DNA of 64,000 nucleotides from Arthrobacter sp. PAMC 25486 (lineage in GTDB: Bacteria > Actinomycetota > Actinomycetes > Actinomycetales > Micrococcaceae), in NCBI RefSeq assembly GCF_000785535.1, contig NZ_CP007595.1, forward strand, positions 2,254,439 to 2,318,438, in the 5' to 3' direction. This document shows positions 4,598-59,060 of this stretch, in pieces; the stretch's first letter is position 1, and each line of letters begins with the position of its first letter. The notes under the pieces were generated by a model. It was not told the DNA's origin. It did no database searches and saw only the letters and a list, made by a program, of their open reading frames with translations. The translations under genes were made by a program, and so were the position numbers.

Positions 4598-4967
4598 GTT
4601 TTGCTCCTTGGTCCGAGGCTAGTTGGTGGAAGCCTACTCCACGCCCTTGCCGAGAATTACCCGAACCCGCTCTGTGCATCGTCCGACACACCGAAAATGG
4701 ACCTTTCTTTCGAAATACATGCAAAGTGCACCCCTCACGCGGGTTGGGCTCATCTTCGCTGATTGGCCCGGCGGAACGGCTGGTTTGGCCCATTCTCGGC
4801 GACAGAATCGTGGACACCGTCCCGTCAGCTCCCGCTCGAGGGTGTCAGTGCATAGTGCAACTGCCGAAACGACACAGATGGCCACAAAGTGGGACCAGGC
4901 AAGCTCTGGGGCTGCTTTCAGGCACAAGAAAACCCCCTCCGGCGCAATGCTGGAGGGGGTTTGTCTG
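4598..4967. other. Intergenic stretch without a supported gene
   Basis: Open frames here lack conserved features or a ribosome-binding site. The stretch holds a tRNA terminator (4929-4962) and, at 4791-4805, CATTCTCGGCGACAG, a one-base variant of the motif found repeatedly in the large repeats at 53.6-54.1 and 57.2-57.7 kb. It may be a degenerate remnant of that element. Confidence 0.5.
4929..4962 (-). terminator. Rho-independent terminator of the tRNA-Met gene
   Basis: Arms AAACCCCCTCC and GGAGGGGGTTT form a strong stem; on the minus strand it is followed by a T-rich TTTTCTT tract. It begins 5 bp past the tRNA 3-prime end. Confidence 0.85.
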
Positions 4968-52682: not shown

Positions 52683-53459
52683 ATGAACACCCAAAACATC
52701 CCTGCTGGCGCGCCTTGCTGGATCGACTTGATGACCTCTGACATGAACAAGTCACGCGATTTTTACACGGCCCTTTTCGGCTGGAGCTACGAAACCGGAG
52801 ATGAGGAAAAGTATGGCGGCTACACCATGGCGTACAAGGACGGAAAGAGCGTTGCCGGGCTGATGCAGAGCGGACAGGACGCTGGCGGACAGCCCGACAT
52901 ATGGAGCACCTACCTGCGCGTCGATGACATGGCAGCATCCATGGCGGCAGCCAAAAATGCGGGCGCCATGGCCTATATGGAGCCCATGGATGTTCCGGAG
53001 CAGGGCAGCATGGCCATGATTGGGGATCCCAGTGGCGCTGCTGTGGGCTTGTGGCAGTTTGGCGGACACACAGGATTCCAGGCCCATGAGGAGAATGGCG
53101 CCGCAGCCTGGCATGAGCTCCACAGCAAGGACTATCGGGCCGCGGTCAGCTTCTACAGGGACGTCTTTGGCGTGGAGACCTCCGTCATGAGCGACACCGA
53201 CGAGTTCCGTTACACCAACATGGTCTTCGGCGGCAAGGAGCTCGCCGGCATCATGGACGCCAGCCAGTGGCTGCCGGATGAGTCGCCCTCCAGCTGGCAG
53301 GTGTACTTCCAGACGGACGACGTCGATGCCACCATCGCGAAGGCGCTCACCCTGGGTGCCACCATCATCAACTCCGCCGAGGATTCCCCTTACGGCCGGA
53401 TTGCCGGGCTCACCGACTGCACCGGGGCCATGTTCAAGCTCGTCCAACCCCAATCCTGA
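52683..53459 (+). CDS. Two-domain VOC family protein
   Basis: A 258-aa protein of two tandem vicinal-oxygen-chelate modules, the pattern of the 27-kDa antigen CFP30B-like family. First module: PAGAPCWIDLMTSDMNKSRD, FYTALFGWSYE, ending IGDPSGAAVGLWQF; second: AAWHELHSKDYRAAVSFYRD, VFGVETSV, ending TDCTGAMFKLVQP. The metal-ligand His appears in WHELHS of module two but is not obvious in module one. Role may be resistance or detoxification; substrate unknown. ATG at 52683 follows GGAGCTGCC. Confidence 0.9.
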   Translation: MNTQNIPAGAPCWIDLMTSDMNKSRDFYTALFGWSYETGDEEKYGGYTMAYKDGKSVAGLMQSGQDAGGQPDIWSTYLRVDDMAASMAAAKNAGAMAYMEPMDVPEQGSMAMIGDPSGAAVGLWQFGGHTGFQAHEENGAAAWHELHSKDYRAAVSFYRDVFGVETSVMSDTDEFRYTNMVFGGKELAGIMDASQWLPDESPSSWQVYFQTDDVDATIAKALTLGATIINSAEDSPYGRIAGLTDCTGAMFKLVQPQS

Positions 53460-53599
53460 CCGTGCCAGGCCGGCCACAGGCCGCTGTCCGGGCCGTCGGG
53501 CGCTGATTCGAAAAAATGCCGCTCACAATGCCTCACGCCGCTAATATGTCAACGGCAGGGGGCATTATGGGCGGCTTTTCGGCTCTTGTGATTCTTTCG

Positions 53600-54140
53600 T
53601 GGGTGCTTCAGTCTGGGACCCACCATCCCGGCTGGCAGCGTTCAAGCCGTTTTCGCCCTGGCTGTCTTCGGCAGGGTCGCAGAGCACCCGTCCTGGTCTT
53701 GCCGACGTTCCTTGACAGGCCGGATCATTCGATCCCCGAGGCTCCGCCGGGGTTTGACTGGAGACTACGCGCCGAGAATGGGCCACACTCGCAGCATTCC
53801 GACCGTGTTTCGTCGAAAATGGTGCAGGCTCGCGAGAAGGGCGCAACTTCGACGGCATCTCACGTGTTCGGGTCATTCTCGGCGAAACAAGAAGCCACAC
53901 GCTACGGCCCAGGGTCATTCTCGGCGAAACAAGAAGCCACACGCTACGGCCCAGGGGCATTCTCGACGAAGCACACCCCCTCCGGCACGAGTTTCCCGCA
54001 CCCCTGCACAAGGAAACAGGGCCGATGTCCGGTACCTGAGCGATGGATCGCCACAACAGCCCGCCAGCTGAGCCAAAAGGGTATGAAGACGTGACGGTCC
54101 GATGGCGAACCCACCCATGGAAGAGCCACAAGAGCCGCTT
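53600..54140 (+). repeat. Long repeat element, copy A (about 540 bp)
   Basis: Non-coding element homologous to copy B (57178-57735) read on the other strand. Collinear landmarks: CACCATCCCGGCTGGC (53621), CGGATCATTCGATCCC (53721), GCTCCGCCGGGGTTGA-like (53741), AGGCTCGCGAGAAGGGCGCA (53826), CATTCTCGGCGAAACA (53874, 53916), CCCTCCGGCACGAGTTTCC (53978), GGTACCTGAGCG (54031), GTGACGGT (54091) and AACCCACCCA...GAGCCACAAGAGCC at the end. Indels between copies are not multiples of three, so one long coding frame is unlikely. It lies between the VOC gene and the converging response-regulator gene. Confidence 0.88.
53871..53954 (+). repeat. Perfect 42-bp tandem duplication inside copy A
   Basis: Two identical 42-bp units start GGTCATTCTCGGCGAAACAA (53871 and 53913); a third, partial and diverged, starts at 53955 (GGGGCATTCTCGACGAAGCA). 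Copy B has one full unit with the next partial, so unit number varies between copies. Confidence 0.92.
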
Positions 54141-54152
54141 TTTCGGCAGGAA

Positions 54153-54827
54153 TCAGCTGCCCGGCTCCACCAGACCGGTGTCGTAGGCCAGCACCACGGC
54201 CTGCACCCGGTCGCGCAGTCCCAGTTTCGCCAGAATCTTGCTGACGTGCGTCTTGACGGTCTGCTGGGCGATGAACAACTCAGCCGCGATCTCCTGGTTG
54301 GAGAACCCCCGCCCAATCAGCGTCATGACCTCAAGTTCACGCTCCGTGAGCCCTTCCAACGGCTCCCTCGACAGCATGGGCCGGGCAGCTGACTGCGCAA
54401 ATTGTTCAATGAGCCGCCTCGTGACGGAGGGCGCCAGCAGTGCCTCCCCCGCAGCAACAACACGCACGGCCGTCAACAGTTCATCGGCGAGCGCATCCTT
54501 CAGCAGGAAGCCGCTGGCCCCCAACCGCAGGGCGTCGTACACATAGTCGTCAACGTCAAAGGTGGTCAGCATCAGCACGTGCGTGGACCTGACACCGCTT
54601 TCGGGGGTGCCCGCAAGAATCAGCCGGGCCGCTTCCAGTCCGTCCATGACGGGCATGCGCACATCCATCAACACCACATCGGGTTGGTGTTCGGAAGCCA
54701 TGTCCACGGCAACGGCGCCGTTTTCTGCCTGCCCCACCACAACGATGTCGTCCTGTGCACCCAGCAACGCAGCAAATCCCTCACGGACCATGGCCTGGTC
54801 GTCAACCACCAACACCCTGATGCTCAT
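54153..54827 (-). CDS. LuxR/NarL-family response regulator
   Basis: A 224-aa response regulator. Receiver: RVLVVDDQAMVREGFAALLG, phosphoacceptor Asp in VVLMDVRMPVMDG (near 54), LMLTTFD and GFLLKDALADE (Lys). The C-terminal NarL helix-turn-helix is LTERELEVMTLIGRGFSNQE, IAAELFIAQQTVKTHVSKIL. Its start overlaps the kinase stop (54824-54827), an obligate pair. The trigger is unknown; similar actinobacterial pairs respond to envelope stress. Confidence 0.95.
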   Translation of the reverse strand: MSIRVLVVDDQAMVREGFAALLGAQDDIVVVGQAENGAVAVDMASEHQPDVVLMDVRMPVMDGLEAARLILAGTPESGVRSTHVLMLTTFDVDDYVYDALRLGASGFLLKDALADELLTAVRVVAAGEALLAPSVTRRLIEQFAQSAARPMLSREPLEGLTERELEVMTLIGRGFSNQEIAAELFIAQQTVKTHVSKILAKLGLRDRVQAVVLAYDTGLVEPGS

Positions 54828-56098
54828 GAGCCTCCCCGCCCGTTACTCGTCTTGTTCACAGCGCTCAGGGGCAGCGTGGCTGTGACTGAAAATCCGCCGT
54901 CGGACATGGGAACGCACACAACGGAACCGCCCACAATGGTGGCCCGCTCGCGCATGCCGATTAGCCCCTGGCCGAGGTGCTGTCCGCGATCCAGCTGCGC
55001 CATCACCGCACCCACGGCCGAGCTGGAGTTGACCACCGATATGGTGAGTTGCCCGCCGATGATGACAAAATCCGTATGGACGGTTGCCCCCGGCGCATGC
55101 CTAATGACGTTGCTGAGTGCCTCCTGCACAATCCGGTAGGTGGTCAGTGCGATGACCTCGCCGATGTCGTGATTGACGATGTCGGACAGCTCGGGTTCGG
55201 TGATCTGCACACCTGCCGATCGGGCTGAGGCGAAGAGCTGTGGCAGGTCTGCCAGTCCGGGCTGCGGACCCAGCTCGCGGCCGGCTTCGGTGTTGCGCAG
55301 GGAGCCCAGCATGCTGCGCATCTCGGTCATGGCGCGGCGGGAGTTCGCGGCGATGTCATCAAATTCCTGCTTCAGTTCATCGCTGAGGCCGGGGTGTCGG
55401 TAGCTGGCGGTGGTTGCCTGCACCACCACAACGGACATGCCGTGGGCCACCACATCGTGGAGTTCCCGGGCAATGCGTGTGCGTTCCTCGGCCAGCCGGC
55501 GTCGGGACTGCTGTTCGGCGCTGACAGAGCGTTCAGCAGCCAATTCGACTCTCAGGTGCTGCCATTGCTGCGCCACGACGGCCGCCACCATGAGGCCGCC
55601 CGAGACTGCCGCGAAGATGACCACATTGATTTGGGCGCCTTCCGACTGGCCGCCGGGCATGGTGACGTAGTTCGAGAGCACGCCAACCACCACGCTGGCC
55701 AGCCATGCACCGGCGGACACCATCCAGTGCGCCCGCAGCCCCGCCACGCAGATCACGAAGACCTGGGTGATCATGGCAACGACGCTGAACGGCATGGGGG
55801 CCGCCCCCACCGGCTGCGACACCAGCGGCATGACAGCCATCGGCACTAGTGACACCAGGGTGCCTGCCACCGGCCGCGCGGCGGTCAGGCCCAGGGAGGC
55901 TGAATGCAGGATGGCCATTCCCAGCGCAAAGGGCAGTGCCATATGGTACAAATTCATGTTCAGCGGGGCGCCCACCGCCAACAGCGCAATGCAGACGGCG
56001 GCCGTGCCCAGCCACACCCAGCTGAGCCCCTTCAACCGCCACAAGGTCACGGTGGTGAAGGGTGCCGGTGTTTCTGCGGCGTCGGCCTTTGCATCCAT
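54824..56098 (-). CDS. Sensor histidine kinase (HisKA_3/NarX-like type)
   Basis: A 424-aa two-component sensor. About four to six membrane helices fill residues 20-165 (WVWLGTAAVCIALLAVGAPL, ALPFALGMAILHSASLGLT, AMITQVFVICVAG, VVIFAAVSGGLMVAAVV). The dimerisation/phosphoacceptor helix is RTRIARELHDVVAHGMSVVV (His in ELHD) and the ATPase has HAPGATVHTDF and GLIGMRERATIVGG. Start at 56098 is chosen since it begins just past the phosphatase stop; a longer frame overlaps it. Together with the response regulator it lies between the two inverted repeats. Confidence 0.92.
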   Translation of the reverse strand: MDAKADAAETPAPFTTVTLWRLKGLSWVWLGTAAVCIALLAVGAPLNMNLYHMALPFALGMAILHSASLGLTAARPVAGTLVSLVPMAVMPLVSQPVGAAPMPFSVVAMITQVFVICVAGLRAHWMVSAGAWLASVVVGVLSNYVTMPGGQSEGAQINVVIFAAVSGGLMVAAVVAQQWQHLRVELAAERSVSAEQQSRRRLAEERTRIARELHDVVAHGMSVVVVQATTASYRHPGLSDELKQEFDDIAANSRRAMTEMRSMLGSLRNTEAGRELGPQPGLADLPQLFASARSAGVQITEPELSDIVNHDIGEVIALTTYRIVQEALSNVIRHAPGATVHTDFVIIGGQLTISVVNSSSAVGAVMAQLDRGQHLGQGLIGMRERATIVGGSVVCVPMSDGGFSVTATLPLSAVNKTSNGRGGS

Positions 56099-56111
56099 AG
56101 GAGTCTGACCC

Positions 56112-56792
56112 TTAGCTATTTGCGTACCCGTCAAAATCTGCTTCGGCGGTGGGGCCGTCGGCGTCAAGGCCGCTCAGCCCACCGGCCGGAGTCCCCTGCC
56201 AGCTCTGGATCTGCCAGCCACCGGGGGCGTTGCTTCCCGTAGGTTCTCCCTCCAGGGTGACGATGCCCGTGTTGGAAAGATCGTGGTATTTCGAGTCGCT
56301 CCAGTCGATGTTGATGCCCCTGTGCCCTGCCCAAAAGCGGATCATGGCACCGTGGCTGACCATCGCCACAGACTCGTGCGCGGCGGCCTCCGCCACCACG
56401 GCATCGAAGCGTTCCAGCACCTCGAACCCGTTGTCGGCGCCGGGCATGCGCGCCGACAGGTCGCCCTTCAGCCATGACATGAGCGCCCCCAGATACGCCT
56501 TGACGGAGTCCGGATCGCCCTTCATTTCAAGGTCTCCGGCGCTGATCTCACGCAGGCCGTCGCGGACCACCGGGGCAAGCTGGCGCTCGGCCGCGAGCGG
56601 GCCGGCCGTCAGTGCGGTGCGGGTCAGATTTGAGATGTACAGGGCATCAATATTCTGATCGGCCACGGCACCGGGGACTGCGGCAGCCTGCAATTCGCCC
56701 AGCGGCGTCAGGCCCGGCCCGGGAACGGCAGTGTCCAGGAGACTACGAACATTGTTGGGAGTTTGGCCGTGTCTAATCAAAATCAGTCGCAT
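56112..56792 (-). CDS. Histidine phosphatase family protein (phosphoglycerate-mutase-like)
   Basis: A 226-aa phosphatase. The catalytic RHG motif is RLILIRHGQTPNN (His8), GLREISAGDLEMKGD holds the acidic residue near 85, and AMVSHGAMIRFWAG has the second His (near 150). The C-terminal 35 residues are Gly/Ser/Asp-rich. Family members dephosphorylate sugars or act as mutases. ATG at 56792 starts directly at the fold. It lies 13 bp upstream of the kinase gene on the same strand and may share the transcript. Confidence 0.9.
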   Translation of the reverse strand: MRLILIRHGQTPNNVRSLLDTAVPGPGLTPLGELQAAAVPGAVADQNIDALYISNLTRTALTAGPLAAERQLAPVVRDGLREISAGDLEMKGDPDSVKAYLGALMSWLKGDLSARMPGADNGFEVLERFDAVVAEAAAHESVAMVSHGAMIRFWAGHRGINIDWSDSKYHDLSNTGIVTLEGEPTGSNAPGGWQIQSWQGTPAGGLSGLDADGPTAEADFDGYANS

Positions 56793-57177
56793 GGTTCCAT
56801 TCTGTCCTACTTGTCGTCTGGGTAAGTGCCGCAAGCTCCAAAGGACGACGACGGCCCTCACCACTTCCGCGGCAGCTCCCTTGCGCTTCGGTCATGTCCG
56901 CTGCACTGATATCGGGTGGCCTGCCGTGCGACATCCGCTTCGCCTCGGGCTGGTAGGCGGCGGACAGCCCGGCCCCACGTTTAAACGCGGCATCACATAA
57001 CTGCGTGTTTTTGCGAACGCCGCATCACTTCCTGCTGATTCAGCCGGTCAGGGGTTAAGAGTTCATTTTCAGGGGTTATGGGTTCAGAAGGTTCAACCAG
57101 CGAAAGTGGGTCCAGCCCGCTCCCACAGCCTGCGGGAACCGCGAAAATGGCTCCAGCTCGCAATATAGGCATATCGT
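56793..57177. other. Intergenic stretch with GCGGCAT-type palindrome
   Basis: No firm gene. AACGCGGCATCACATAAC (from 56984) and GAACGCCGCATCACTTCC (from 57013) belong to the GCGGCAG repeat family with G/C-variant arms. The possible short coding frame at 56993-57226 is listed separately. The phosphatase promoter is expected near 56793-56880; no clear boxes were read. Confidence 0.45.
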
Positions 57178-57226
57178 GTGGCTCTTGTGGCTGTTGTGGC
57201 TGTTCGGTGGGTGGGTTCACCGTCAC
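56993..57226 (-). CDS. Possible small gene at the end of copy B, 77 aa
   Basis: A GTG-start frame with GAGGGA 8 bp upstream, reading TVNPPTEQPQQPQEPHDMP, then ILRAGAIFAVPAGCGSG, PSEPITPENELLTPDR and ending QKHAVM. No family recognised. Copy A has the same sequence environment at the equivalent place: ATG at 54102 gives ANPPMEEPQEPLFRQE and then runs antisense through the response-regulator gene. The shared NPPxExPQEP reading could mean the repeat carries the 5-prime end of a small gene, or could just reflect DNA homology. Low confidence. Confidence 0.25.
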   Translation of the reverse strand: MTVNPPTEQPQQPQEPHDMPILRAGAIFAVPAGCGSGLDPLSLVEPSEPITPENELLTPDRLNQQEVMRRSQKHAVM

Positions 57227-57735
57227 GCTTTCAGTCCCTCGCACTGGTAATGGGCTGCTGGGTGAATCACCGCTCAGGTACCGGCGACCGTCTCCGTTTC
57301 CTTTCCCCGCTTCCTTTCCCCGCTTCTTTTCCCCGCTTCCTTTCGCAGGGGTACTGGAAACTCGTGCCGGAGGGTGTGTGTTTCGCCGAGAATGGCCCTG
57401 AGCCGTATTGTGTGGCATCCTGTTTCGCCGAGAATGGGTCCAACCCGTGACCTGGCGTCAAAGATGCGCCCTTCTCGCGAGCCTGAACCATTTTCGGCGA
57501 AACAGGTTCAGATCTATGCGGGTTTGGCCCCTTCTCGGCCCGCATTTACCTCTCAACCCCGGCGGAGCCGCTGGGATCGAATGATCCGGCATGTCACACA
57601 ACGTCGGGGATACCAGGATGGCGCGCCCCTCCTCCCTGGTCGAAGACAGCTCCTGCAACAACGGCTTGAAACCTGACAGCCGGGATGGTGCGTGTCCGGC
57701 TCAGCCACCCACGGAAGACACACACGAGCGTATCT
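57178..57735 (-). repeat. Long repeat element, copy B (inverted relative to A, about 550 bp)
   Basis: Read on the minus strand it matches copy A from CACCATCCCGGCTG (near 57680) through CGGATCATTCGATCCC (near 57575), AGGCTCGCGAGAAGGGCGCA (near 57470), CATTCTCGGCGAAACA (57418-57433), CCCTCCGGCACGAGTTTCC (near 57370), GGTACCTGAGCG (near 57275) and GTGACGGTGAACCCACCC to GAGCCACAAGAGCC-like (57178). It differs by small indels and by a 13-bp microsatellite. Its outer end is next to the MFS stop codon at 57774. Confidence 0.88.
57298..57349. repeat. 13-bp microsatellite in copy B
   Basis: TTCCTTTCCCCGC at 57298 and 57311, TTCTTTTCCCCGC at 57324 and a decayed copy at 57337. Copy A has no such expansion at this point. 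Confidence 0.9.
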
Positions 57736-57773
57736 TGTGGGTCGTTTCGCGAGCCAGCGGCATTTTCGGCACA

Positions 57774-59060
57774 TCACGGCACCGGATGGCGGGCGTCATA
57801 GCGCAGGAAACCGCGTTGCCATGCAGCCAACCCCCACACGGCGCCAATGCAGATCAGTCCCCCAATGACTGCTGCCCAGCCCTCACCCCTCCACTGCCCC
57901 ACGGAACCGGAGAACACGTCACCCAGGCGGGGCCCGCCCGTCACCACCACAACAAAAATGCCCTGCAACCGTCCTCGGAGATGGTCGGGTGTGGCCGACT
58001 GCAAAATCGTGGAGCGAAAAACTGAGCTGATGGTGTCAGCCACGCCCGCCACAACCAAGGCGGCAACCGCGCCCACCAGCCAAGGCGACGTCACGCCGTC
58101 GTGCGTCTTCCCTCCGGCCAACACCACAGCGCCCAGCGCCACGATCGCGGCGCCCCACAGCGTAATGGACCACACCACTGCCAACCCCTGACGTCGGACG
58201 CCACCGAGCGGGCCGGAGAACAAGGCCGCCAGGAAGGAACCGGCGGCAATGGATGCCAACAGAATGCCCGCTGTCTGTTCACCGCCACCCAGCCACACCG
58301 CACCAATGGCAGGAAGCAGTGCACGCGGCAGGGCGAACACCATGGCGCACATGTCCACCAGGAAGGTCATGCGCAGATTCTTCCGGGTGCCCAGGTAAGC
58401 GAAGCCCTCAAGCACGGACGTCAGCCCTGCCCGCTGGACCAGGCCACCATCGGCCCGGGCAAGGGGCGGCAGCGGCGGGAGCTTGAACAAGGCCCACAGT
58501 GAGGCAGTGAACGTCAGCACATCCACCGTGTAGGTCCACCCGTAACCAACATTGGCCACCAAGATTCCTGCCATGAGCGGACCAATGGTGGTGCCCATAC
58601 CCATCACGATCATGCTCAGGGCATTGGCCGAAGGCAGCAGTTCCGGGCGGACCAGGCGCGGCACGATGGAGCTGCGGGCCGAACCGTTCACCCCCGCAGC
58701 CGCGGATTGCACGGCGATGAGCCCATACAGAATCCAAATATTGCCAAGGCCCAGCCACGCCTGCAGCGCAATGCCAATCGTGACCAGCCACAGAACGCTT
58801 GAGGAGACCAGGGCGACCTTGCGGCGGTCGTGGGCGTCGGCGATTGACCCGCCGTACAGGCCTGCAACCACCAGCGGAATCAAGGCCACCAGGCCCAGCA
58901 TGCCCACCGACAGGGTGGATCCGGTGAGGTCGTAAATTTCCAGGCTGACGGCCACCACCGTCAGCTGCGTGCCGATCGAGGATAAGCCGTTGCCAATCCA
59001 CAGCCGCCTGAACGCCGGGCTTTCACGCAGCGGAGTGACGTCGGCGAGGATTCTTGGCAC
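57774..59060 (-). CDS. MFS transporter (EntS/MFS_3-like)
   Basis: A 428-aa 12-helix transporter. N-terminus ESPAFRRLWIGNGLSSIGTQ is characteristic of the MFS_3/EntS-like group, with motif A GGSIADAHDRRKVALVS (near 70), NALSMIVMGMGTTIGPLMAG (near 145), and GGVRRQGLAVV (second motif-A-like loop). Related proteins export siderophores or drugs; nothing nearby fixes the substrate. It starts 56 bp from the divergent ankyrin gene and stops 40 bp from copy B. Confidence 0.9.
   Translation of the reverse strand: MPRILADVTPLRESPAFRRLWIGNGLSSIGTQLTVVAVSLEIYDLTGSTLSVGMLGLVALIPLVVAGLYGGSIADAHDRRKVALVSSSVLWLVTIGIALQAWLGLGNIWILYGLIAVQSAAAGVNGSARSSIVPRLVRPELLPSANALSMIVMGMGTTIGPLMAGILVANVGYGWTYTVDVLTFTASLWALFKLPPLPPLARADGGLVQRAGLTSVLEGFAYLGTRKNLRMTFLVDMCAMVFALPRALLPAIGAVWLGGGEQTAGILLASIAAGSFLAALFSGPLGGVRRQGLAVVWSITLWGAAIVALGAVVLAGGKTHDGVTSPWLVGAVAALVVAGVADTISSVFRSTILQSATPDHLRGRLQGIFVVVVTGGPRLGDVFSGSVGQWRGEGWAAVIGGLICIGAVWGLAAWQRGFLRYDARHPVP

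Follow-up and report, generated by a model that had tools for sequence, protein, structure and literature searches.

Repeats flanking a two-component system in Arthrobacter sp. PAMC 25486 are very probably old copies of an ISL3-type miniature transposable element

Introduction

What are the two inverted repeats of about 550 bp that flank a set of signalling genes in Arthrobacter sp. PAMC 25486? The repeats, copies A and B, lie in a stretch of 64,000 nucleotides (NCBI RefSeq assembly GCF_000785535.1, contig NZ_CP007595.1, positions 2,254,439 to 2,318,438 of the forward strand), hereafter the window. A preliminary description made from the sequence alone took them for a pair of collinear, inverted, non-coding repeats conserved as DNA or RNA, placed at the 3′ ends of genes and enclosing a two-component system. 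These features were borne out. The inverted-repeat blocks reach 182 nt, the four largest being 76–86% complementary; genes for a histidine phosphatase, a HisKA_3 kinase and a LuxR-type regulator lie between the repeats; A is located between the 3′ ends of convergent genes and B just past the 3′ end of an MFS transporter gene; and motifs of the CATTCTCGGCGAAACA type recur as reported (12 matches in the window versus 3.85 expected, 8 of the 12 inside A and B). The term "pair", however, is incomplete, as A and B are indeed inverted but are two of 14 copies in the genome and belong to different subfamilies. Two other claims have to be withdrawn. A terminal inverted repeat, said to be missing, is present in both copies together with an 8-bp target duplication (6/8 bases in A, 7/8 in B), and the element, said to match no mobile element, has ends and target duplications of the ISL3 type. 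A and B are very probably old copies of an ISL3-type miniature inverted-repeat transposable element (MITE) that depends on the transposase of another element.

A dispersed family with constant ends

Copy A was used as a query against the genome containing the window (G000, one contig of 4.59 Mb). The 30 matches comprised 21 pieces of 14 full-unit copies and nine matches to an interior module only. Besides A and B, the full-unit copies are found near 20, 238, 263, 412, 529, 857, 1759, 2370, 3079, 3289, 3398 and 3962 kb (c20, c238 and so on below), in both orientations, and these 12 copies adjoin other reading frames elsewhere in the genome. Both ends were seen in 13 of the 14 aligned copies, those of c3398 being degraded, and c263 lacks the right end. 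Copies with both ends measure 425–597 bp. The family divides into two subfamilies, separated by a branch with a support of 1.0. Subfamily I comprises A and seven others (87–94% identical; 87–90% for A against its own subfamily) and subfamily II comprises B and five others (77–92% identical). A and B, which are only 75% identical and belong to different subfamilies, are thus not a matched pair.

Alignment of the copies revealed terminal inverted repeats of 24–25 bp, GGCTCTTGTGACTCTTTCGTGGGTG and its near-complement. Immediately outside these ends are AT-rich direct repeats of 8 bp (flanks 74% AT). The two flanks of a copy match each other at 8/8 positions in c1759, 7/8 in B, c3079, c2370 and c3289, 6/8 in A and c412, 5/8 in c3962 and c20, 4/8 in c238, c529 and c857, and 2/8 in c3398; in B, c412 and c2370 the position of the right end was set by hand. 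Hence 7 of 13 copies reach at least 6/8 on their own flanks. Over the flanking 8-mers of the 13 copies, 72 of 104 positions match, a total that was never equalled when the right flanks were permuted 20000 times; unrelated left–right pairs (n = 154) match at 2.7 of 8 positions on average, with a maximum of 6.

A protein-coding body was ruled out. Open frames of up to 189 codons occur in many copies, and the length on the minus strand was reached by 13–118 of 200 order-1 Markov shuffles of the same composition, which is the level of chance. The reading phase is broken by indels (comparison of A with other copies gives 79–356 in-phase columns and 47–300 out of phase), the longest frame of A is only partly common to any other copy, and in-phase substitutions on the minus strand show no concentration at third codon positions. 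A transposase gene is likewise absent from the MITE copies, none of the 14 showing a coding signal or the body of an insertion sequence (IS).

Ends shared with ISL3 insertion sequences

ISL3 elements have ends that start with GGCTCTT and are flanked by 8-bp duplications. A search of the genus with the ISL3 transposase profile PF01610 gave matches in 19 of 23 genomes, and 30 matching loci (L052-L081) were scanned for MITE-type ends. A pair of such ends was found around the transposase frame at two of these loci, in the congeners G003 and G021. The G003 IS is 1437 bp long with a perfect 8-bp duplication (GGAAATCC), and its ends agree with the MITE consensus at 24 and 23 of 25 bases. The G021 IS is 1436 bp long, also with a perfect 8-bp duplication (TCTTTTTC), and its ends agree at 23 and 18 of 25 bases. 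With the ISL3 model NF033550 (cut-off 180), a 320-aa piece of the G003 transposase scores 226 bits and the G021 transposase, whose frame is open over 438 codons, scores 288 bits. Beyond the genus, a search of genome_contigs located the exact 24-base end in Nocardioides sp. Root190, in a 1426-bp unit with the 8-bp duplication TCATTTTC. A further three exact occurrences are in Actinomyces provencensis, where one 753-bp unit has the duplication CAGTTTCC. The latter unit (L169, 6690-7442), with ISL3-type ends and a perfect 8-bp duplication, is possibly another non-autonomous element.

The family therefore combines ISL3-like terminal repeats, an 8-bp duplication, several dispersed copies with constant ends and the lack of an internal transposase gene, and its assignment to the ISL3-type MITEs follows from the fact that like ends bound ISL3-family IS with perfect 8-bp duplications in two congeners. 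Its distribution is narrow. There is no MITE copy in the 22 other genomes of the genus, where the one other match is an end of the G003 IS, and a search of 35 more genomes from the family or order gave no MITE match. A plasmid or phage origin was rejected since blastn searches of both collections were empty; the exact interior pattern was not found in viral contigs. At the A site, only 22–263 bp separate the matched ends of the genes on either side in G013, G002, G015, G006, G003 and G019, compared to about 700 bp in G000. This short spacing indicates that the site lacks the element in six of seven relatives.

Several observations weigh against this assignment. The target duplications of most copies are imperfect, and those of c238 (4/8), c3398 (2), c20 (5) and c3962 (5, better with one indel) are not clear; c263 has no right end and three other right ends (B, c412, c2370) were, as mentioned, hand-placed. 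A length of 425–597 bp is large for a MITE. A stop lies within the transposase frame of the G003 IS and one end of the G021 IS has diverged, so that of the two partners only G021 has an open frame. Moreover, the PF01610 search found no intact ISL3 transposase with MITE-type ends in G000, its sole match there being a degraded fragment with a stop and without such ends (locus L099); a partner in the same genome was thus not found, and the like-ended IS are those of G003 and G021. Finally, the empty A site is deduced from gene spacing, the intergenic bases aligning poorly across species (five relatives), and in G007 the neighbouring genes are 3.9 kb apart, so that the site cannot be judged. In our judgement, however, a partner in the same genome is not required of an old MITE family. 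The copies are old, and the family is probably no longer moving, since its members have diverged in both subfamilies and no intact partner transposase was found in G000.

A 328-kb inversion between two copies

The left 8-mer of c529 is identical to the right 8-mer of c857 (GTAAAACT, 8/8), and the left 8-mer of c857 to the right 8-mer of c529 (GTATTTGT, 8/8), whereas each copy scores only 4/8 on its own flanks. The former copy is on the plus strand and the latter on the minus strand, with about 328 kb between them. Exchanged 8-bp duplications of this kind are the trace left when two inverted copies recombine. The junctions that preceded the event are found in relatives. In G002, G013 and G007 the high flank of c857 is joined, across gaps of 234, 269 and 37 bp respectively, to sequence that in G000 lies to the right of c529. 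In G007, about 1.4 kb separates the left flank of c529 from the low flank of c857. The exchanged duplications and the ancestral junctions together show a chromosomal inversion of about 328 kb, brought about by homologous recombination between c529 and c857.

Some points argue against so simple an account. The second ancestral junction was seen only in G007, the low flank of c857 not being found at the matching place in G013 (L199). Other rearrangements surround c529, whose left flank is itself split in relatives, and the blocks at 529.8-533.3 and 533.4-536.7 kb of G000 are in the opposite order in G002 (L201) and G013 (L202). This local change of block order to the right of c529 is distinct from the 328-kb inversion. 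No other exact flank exchange was found, the best other cross-matches being 6/8 (3 of 154 pairs); the one of these that was examined, between the left flank of c412 and the right flank of c238, is not reciprocal. Next to c857, G000 carries four paralogous stretches in tandem (G000:C1:846755-857436, L205), each about 2.0-2.4 kb long, and all of them align to one and the same stretch of G007.

The palindromic interior module

Each of the 14 MITE copies contains a palindromic module of 78 bp. The CATTCTCGGCGAAACA motif constitutes the arm of the palindrome; the two arms are 63 bp apart, start to start, and half-motifs are located 41 or 42 bp further out. The 14 MITE copies, 14 stand-alone copies from G000 and two from relatives align over 78 gapless columns (alignment A1, from which L183, of 79 nt, was excluded), and 24 of the 78 columns are invariant in a 16-copy alignment (14 stand-alone copies and two from MITEs). 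Outside the MITEs, G000:C1 has at least 17 stand-alone modules, for example at 719274, 1481210, 1975988, 2632381, 2745819 and 3904788. A weak, degenerate match also lies in the window at 4687-4763 on the minus strand (24.9 bits, E 0.0005), with half-motifs 41 and 102 bp apart nearby (L172).

A covariance model, roughly calibrated and used to score only 150 candidates per genome, detected related modules in 17 of the 23 genomes, G000 among them. Eleven of the 16 other genomes have a best E below 1e-9, and G002, G004, G007, G011 and G016 only 3e-5 to 3e-4; the palindrome matches both strands, so these matches do not count sites. Strong relatives of the module occur in G003, G005, G006, G008, G009, G010, G014, G015, G018, G019 and G020 (L187, L188, L252-L291). 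Arm sequences tend to be common within a species, with CGGCGC-type arms in five of six G014 copies, and some congener modules form near-perfect long hairpins. In G015, three stretches of about 1 kb (G015:C1 near 9699, 4226098 and 4236471), with flanks 98.6-99.8% identical and at most about 12 kb from the contig ends, each carry a module. A known RNA family was rejected: window positions 53000-58500 have no Rfam match at E ≤ 1, and 20 module loci gave only matches far below the gathering score, mostly to miRNA hairpin models.

The surroundings of 56 stand-alone sites (16 in G000, 40 in relatives) were classified by gene orientation, as given by a crude codon-usage gene caller. At the loosest threshold 30 sites are convergent, 11 tandem, 2 divergent and 13 unclear, so that 30 of 43 classifiable sites lie between convergent genes, compared to 15 of 72 control pairs of genes with a spacing of 80 bp or more. 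Stricter thresholds left 27, 22 and 12 convergent sites, with 19, 28 and 40 of the 56 unclear. The sites are not all independent, since they include three near-identical copies (G015) and a few orthologues.

The covariation test proposed in the preliminary description was run on the module and gave a divided answer. In an alignment of 34 modules taken from ten genomes other than G000, pairing of the 22-pair stem reaches 90.1%, with 75 double-change cells versus 26.0 ± 6.1 after shuffling (0 of 500 as high). Pairing falls to 38–48% when the stem partner is slid by one, two or three columns. The alignment excludes L183, two G000 loci, two near-identical copies and four sites that differ in length. 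The model that found the modules of relatives contained the stem, so the search may favour pairing. A sequence-only profile built from the G000 copies recovered, at E < 1e-3, 36 of the 46 module loci (two of the 46 being G000 loci), and the 26 alignment rows that it detected keep the excess (49 versus 17.9 ± 4.3 shuffled); those rows, which are mutually related, had been chosen by the structure-aware search except for two found by pattern, and the search bias is reduced, not removed. Within G000, in contrast, there is no excess covariation (77.3% paired versus 76.0 shuffled, 55/500). This is evidence against the stem, and RNA structure within the G000 copies, with pairing at the shuffled level, is not supported. 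Fold z values are −1.63 for the module of A, slightly better than shuffles, −7.02 for a stand-alone G000 copy and −5.4 to −15.4 for three relatives. Orthologous pairs of modules give mixed results: in L273/L276 there is one double compensatory change, and one pair is lost, another regained and a further one maintained through a one-sided change; in L274/L289 three pairs are regained, two lost and four maintained through one-sided changes.

Location between convergent genes at 30 of 43 sites and a stem paired at 90% in relatives and 77% in G000 are what a terminator hairpin would display. We infer that the module may be a transcript-end hairpin captured by the MITE, with a putative role as terminator. 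Complementarity of the arms could also stem from a protein that binds both arms, or from template switching between them. A broader proposal is tentative and, on balance, doubtful: the module would be an undescribed genus-wide hairpin under structural selection between convergent genes, ending transcription both ways or insulating, and its capture as the body of the MITE would make each insertion a portable insulator. If this were true, each insertion would bring its own transcript end, hence be harmless, and would become a recombination site for large inversions.

Alternative explanations and proposed history

The stand-alone modules might be remnants of the MITE rather than its source. The centre GGGCGCAACTTTGACGGCAT, common to the stand-alone modules and the MITE copies of G000, speaks for such a descent. 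It is nevertheless unlikely, as 16 of the 22 other genomes, none of which has a MITE copy, contain related modules, some of these modules occupy orthologous places with both flanks conserved (L273/L276, L274/L289), and the nine module-only matches resemble A only within its positions 209-372.

An internally deleted ISL3 IS, instead of a MITE with an unrelated body, would explain why the ends match ISL3 IS over 24 to about 60 bp. However, significant similarity is limited to those terminal bases. The internal alignments to the G003 and G021 IS, the two that were compared, are weak (best E ~0.01-1), short and scattered, and the 14 copies have no coding signal, which makes such an origin quite improbable.

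Slightly less probable still is that the modules are repetitive extragenic palindromic (REP) sequences moved by a REP-associated tyrosine transposase (RAYT). They are palindromic, intergenic and repetitive, and G000 does have one Y1_Tnp (PF01797) gene (G000:C1:445415-445780). Nonetheless, Y1_Tnp matches are confined to two of 23 genomes (G000, G019) while modules occur in 17, and the stretches around the two genes contain no module (L292, L293); a Y1 transposase flanked by the repeats was not found.

The repeats could further be a structured non-coding RNA or a cis-regulatory element duplicated around the two-component system. The presence of the module in all 14 copies and the covariation of its stem across species, in the full alignment as in the 26 rows, favour this explanation. 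Yet the covariation concerns the 78-bp module and not the 550-bp unit with its transposon ends and target duplications, it has no counterpart within G000, Rfam returned nothing for the region, and the other 12 copies lie beside other reading frames. We regard this explanation as very improbable.

Least probable of all is that A and B form an invertible switch for the phosphatase–kinase–regulator segment: they are inverted and 75% identical, and inversion through such repeats, foreseen in the preliminary description, did occur between c529 and c857, but A and B come from different subfamilies, retain their own duplications, which one inversion would exchange, enclose three genes that are not recombinases, and display neither both orientations nor an exchange of flanks. 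The glyoxalase-type gene and the regulator–kinase genes keep the same order and orientation across A in all seven relatives examined, and the MFS gene past B is also collinear in G006 and G015, the two relatives where it was found nearby. With the duplications retained and the relatives collinear, there is no sign of an inversion of this segment by A and B.

The ISL3-type MITE remains the preferred explanation, and its history may be outlined as follows. The element most likely formed when ISL3 ends came to enclose a resident intergenic palindrome, as suggested by the stand-alone modules that G000 also contains. An ISL3-family transposase, from an IS with like 24–25 bp ends, would have recognised the MITE ends in trans and directed insertion into AT-rich 8-bp targets, giving the duplications observed in the family. 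The copies would have spread in this lineage, the transposase would then have been lost and the copies would have decayed. On at least one occasion, that of the inversion described above, the chromosome was rearranged through homologous recombination between copies.

Copies A and B in the window

Table 1. Elements of copies A and B and the adjoining genes, with positions in the window
Feature	Position	Strand	Basis or remark
Copy A of the MITE, subfamily I, 556 bp	53581..54136	+	Genome search, alignment of ends, flank table
A, left target duplication (GGCTTTTC)	53573..53580	+	6/8 bases common with the right one
A, right target duplication (GCTTTTTC)	54137..54144	+	Flank table
A, left terminal inverted repeat	53581..53605	+	Inverted-repeat scan (53580-53605 pairs with 54112-54137, 85%); end alignment
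A, right terminal inverted repeat	54112..54136	-	Inverted-repeat scan pair; end alignment
78-bp palindromic module within A	53809..53886	+	86.0 bits; extra half-motifs 41-42 bp outward on both sides
Copy B of the MITE, subfamily II, 551 bp	57180..57730	-	Genome search, alignment, flank table
B, element-left target duplication (ACAAGATA on - strand)	57731..57738	-	7/8 bases common with the other side
B, element-right target duplication (ACACGATA on - strand)	57172..57179	-	Flank table
B, left terminal inverted repeat	57706..57730	-	End alignment
B, right end	57180..57204	+	Terminal CACAAGAGCC has a near copy 9 bp inward; outer one taken as the end
78-bp palindromic module within B	57424..57501	-	89.0 bits; RNA fold z -4.77
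Glyoxalase/VOC-type gene, converges on A	52683..53459	+	Open reading frame (ORF) list and protein family
LuxR-type response regulator gene, converges on A	54153..54827	-	ORF list and protein family
HisKA_3 histidine kinase gene	54824..56167	-	ORF extent; real start perhaps internal
Histidine phosphatase superfamily gene	56112..56864	-	ORF extent; real start perhaps internal
MFS transporter gene, 3′ end adjoins B	57774..59060	-	ORF list and protein family

Significance and comparison with known systems

What was an unexplained pair of repeats can thereby be placed in a defined MITE family for which a type of mobiliser is named. The exchanged 8-bp duplications, together with the ancestral junctions in relatives, provide a clean footprint of how MITE copies mediated an inversion of 328 kb, and the hairpin family of the genus, which has no Rfam match above the gathering score, may mark the ends of convergent genes. 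No earlier description of this MITE or of the 78-bp hairpin was met in a literature search whose reach excluded most subscription papers. Novelty is most to be expected of the hairpin module.

In being palindromic, dispersed and extragenic, the module resembles REPs and bacterial interspersed mosaic elements (BIMEs) (PMC2817692, PMC3733652, PMC12306157). REPs are 20-40 bp long according to PMC3733652; the module differs in its length of at least 78 bp, its low copy number and its lack of association with a Y1 transposase here. The SPRITE, RUP and BOX elements of Streptococcus pneumoniae are likewise small and intergenic, and SPRITE carries a terminator-like sequence (PMC10969869); the module is likened to them by analogy and not by sequence relation.

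The MITE shares with ISL3-family IS (PF01610, NF033550) its terminal repeats, up to 24 of 25 bases with one end of the G003 IS, and the 8-bp duplications. Both IS found here are about 1.4 kb long with a transposase frame, whereas the MITE has neither a transposase nor an IS body. The closest parallel comes from Microcystis aeruginosa, which belongs to a different phylum from the present host. According to PMC11448079, a MITE of 187 nt in that species has ends starting with GGCTCTT and an 8-nt target duplication, and an ISL3-family transposase with matching ends was proposed as its mobiliser. The element described here, with the same kind of ends, duplication and proposed mobiliser, is longer, at about 550 bp. 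The likely partner of the Microcystis MITE resides in the same genome (PMC11448079), whereas here a likely partner was found only in congeners. As a mobile element, the MITE of Arthrobacter sp. PAMC 25486 adds a new family to an already known kind, the ISL3-type MITEs.

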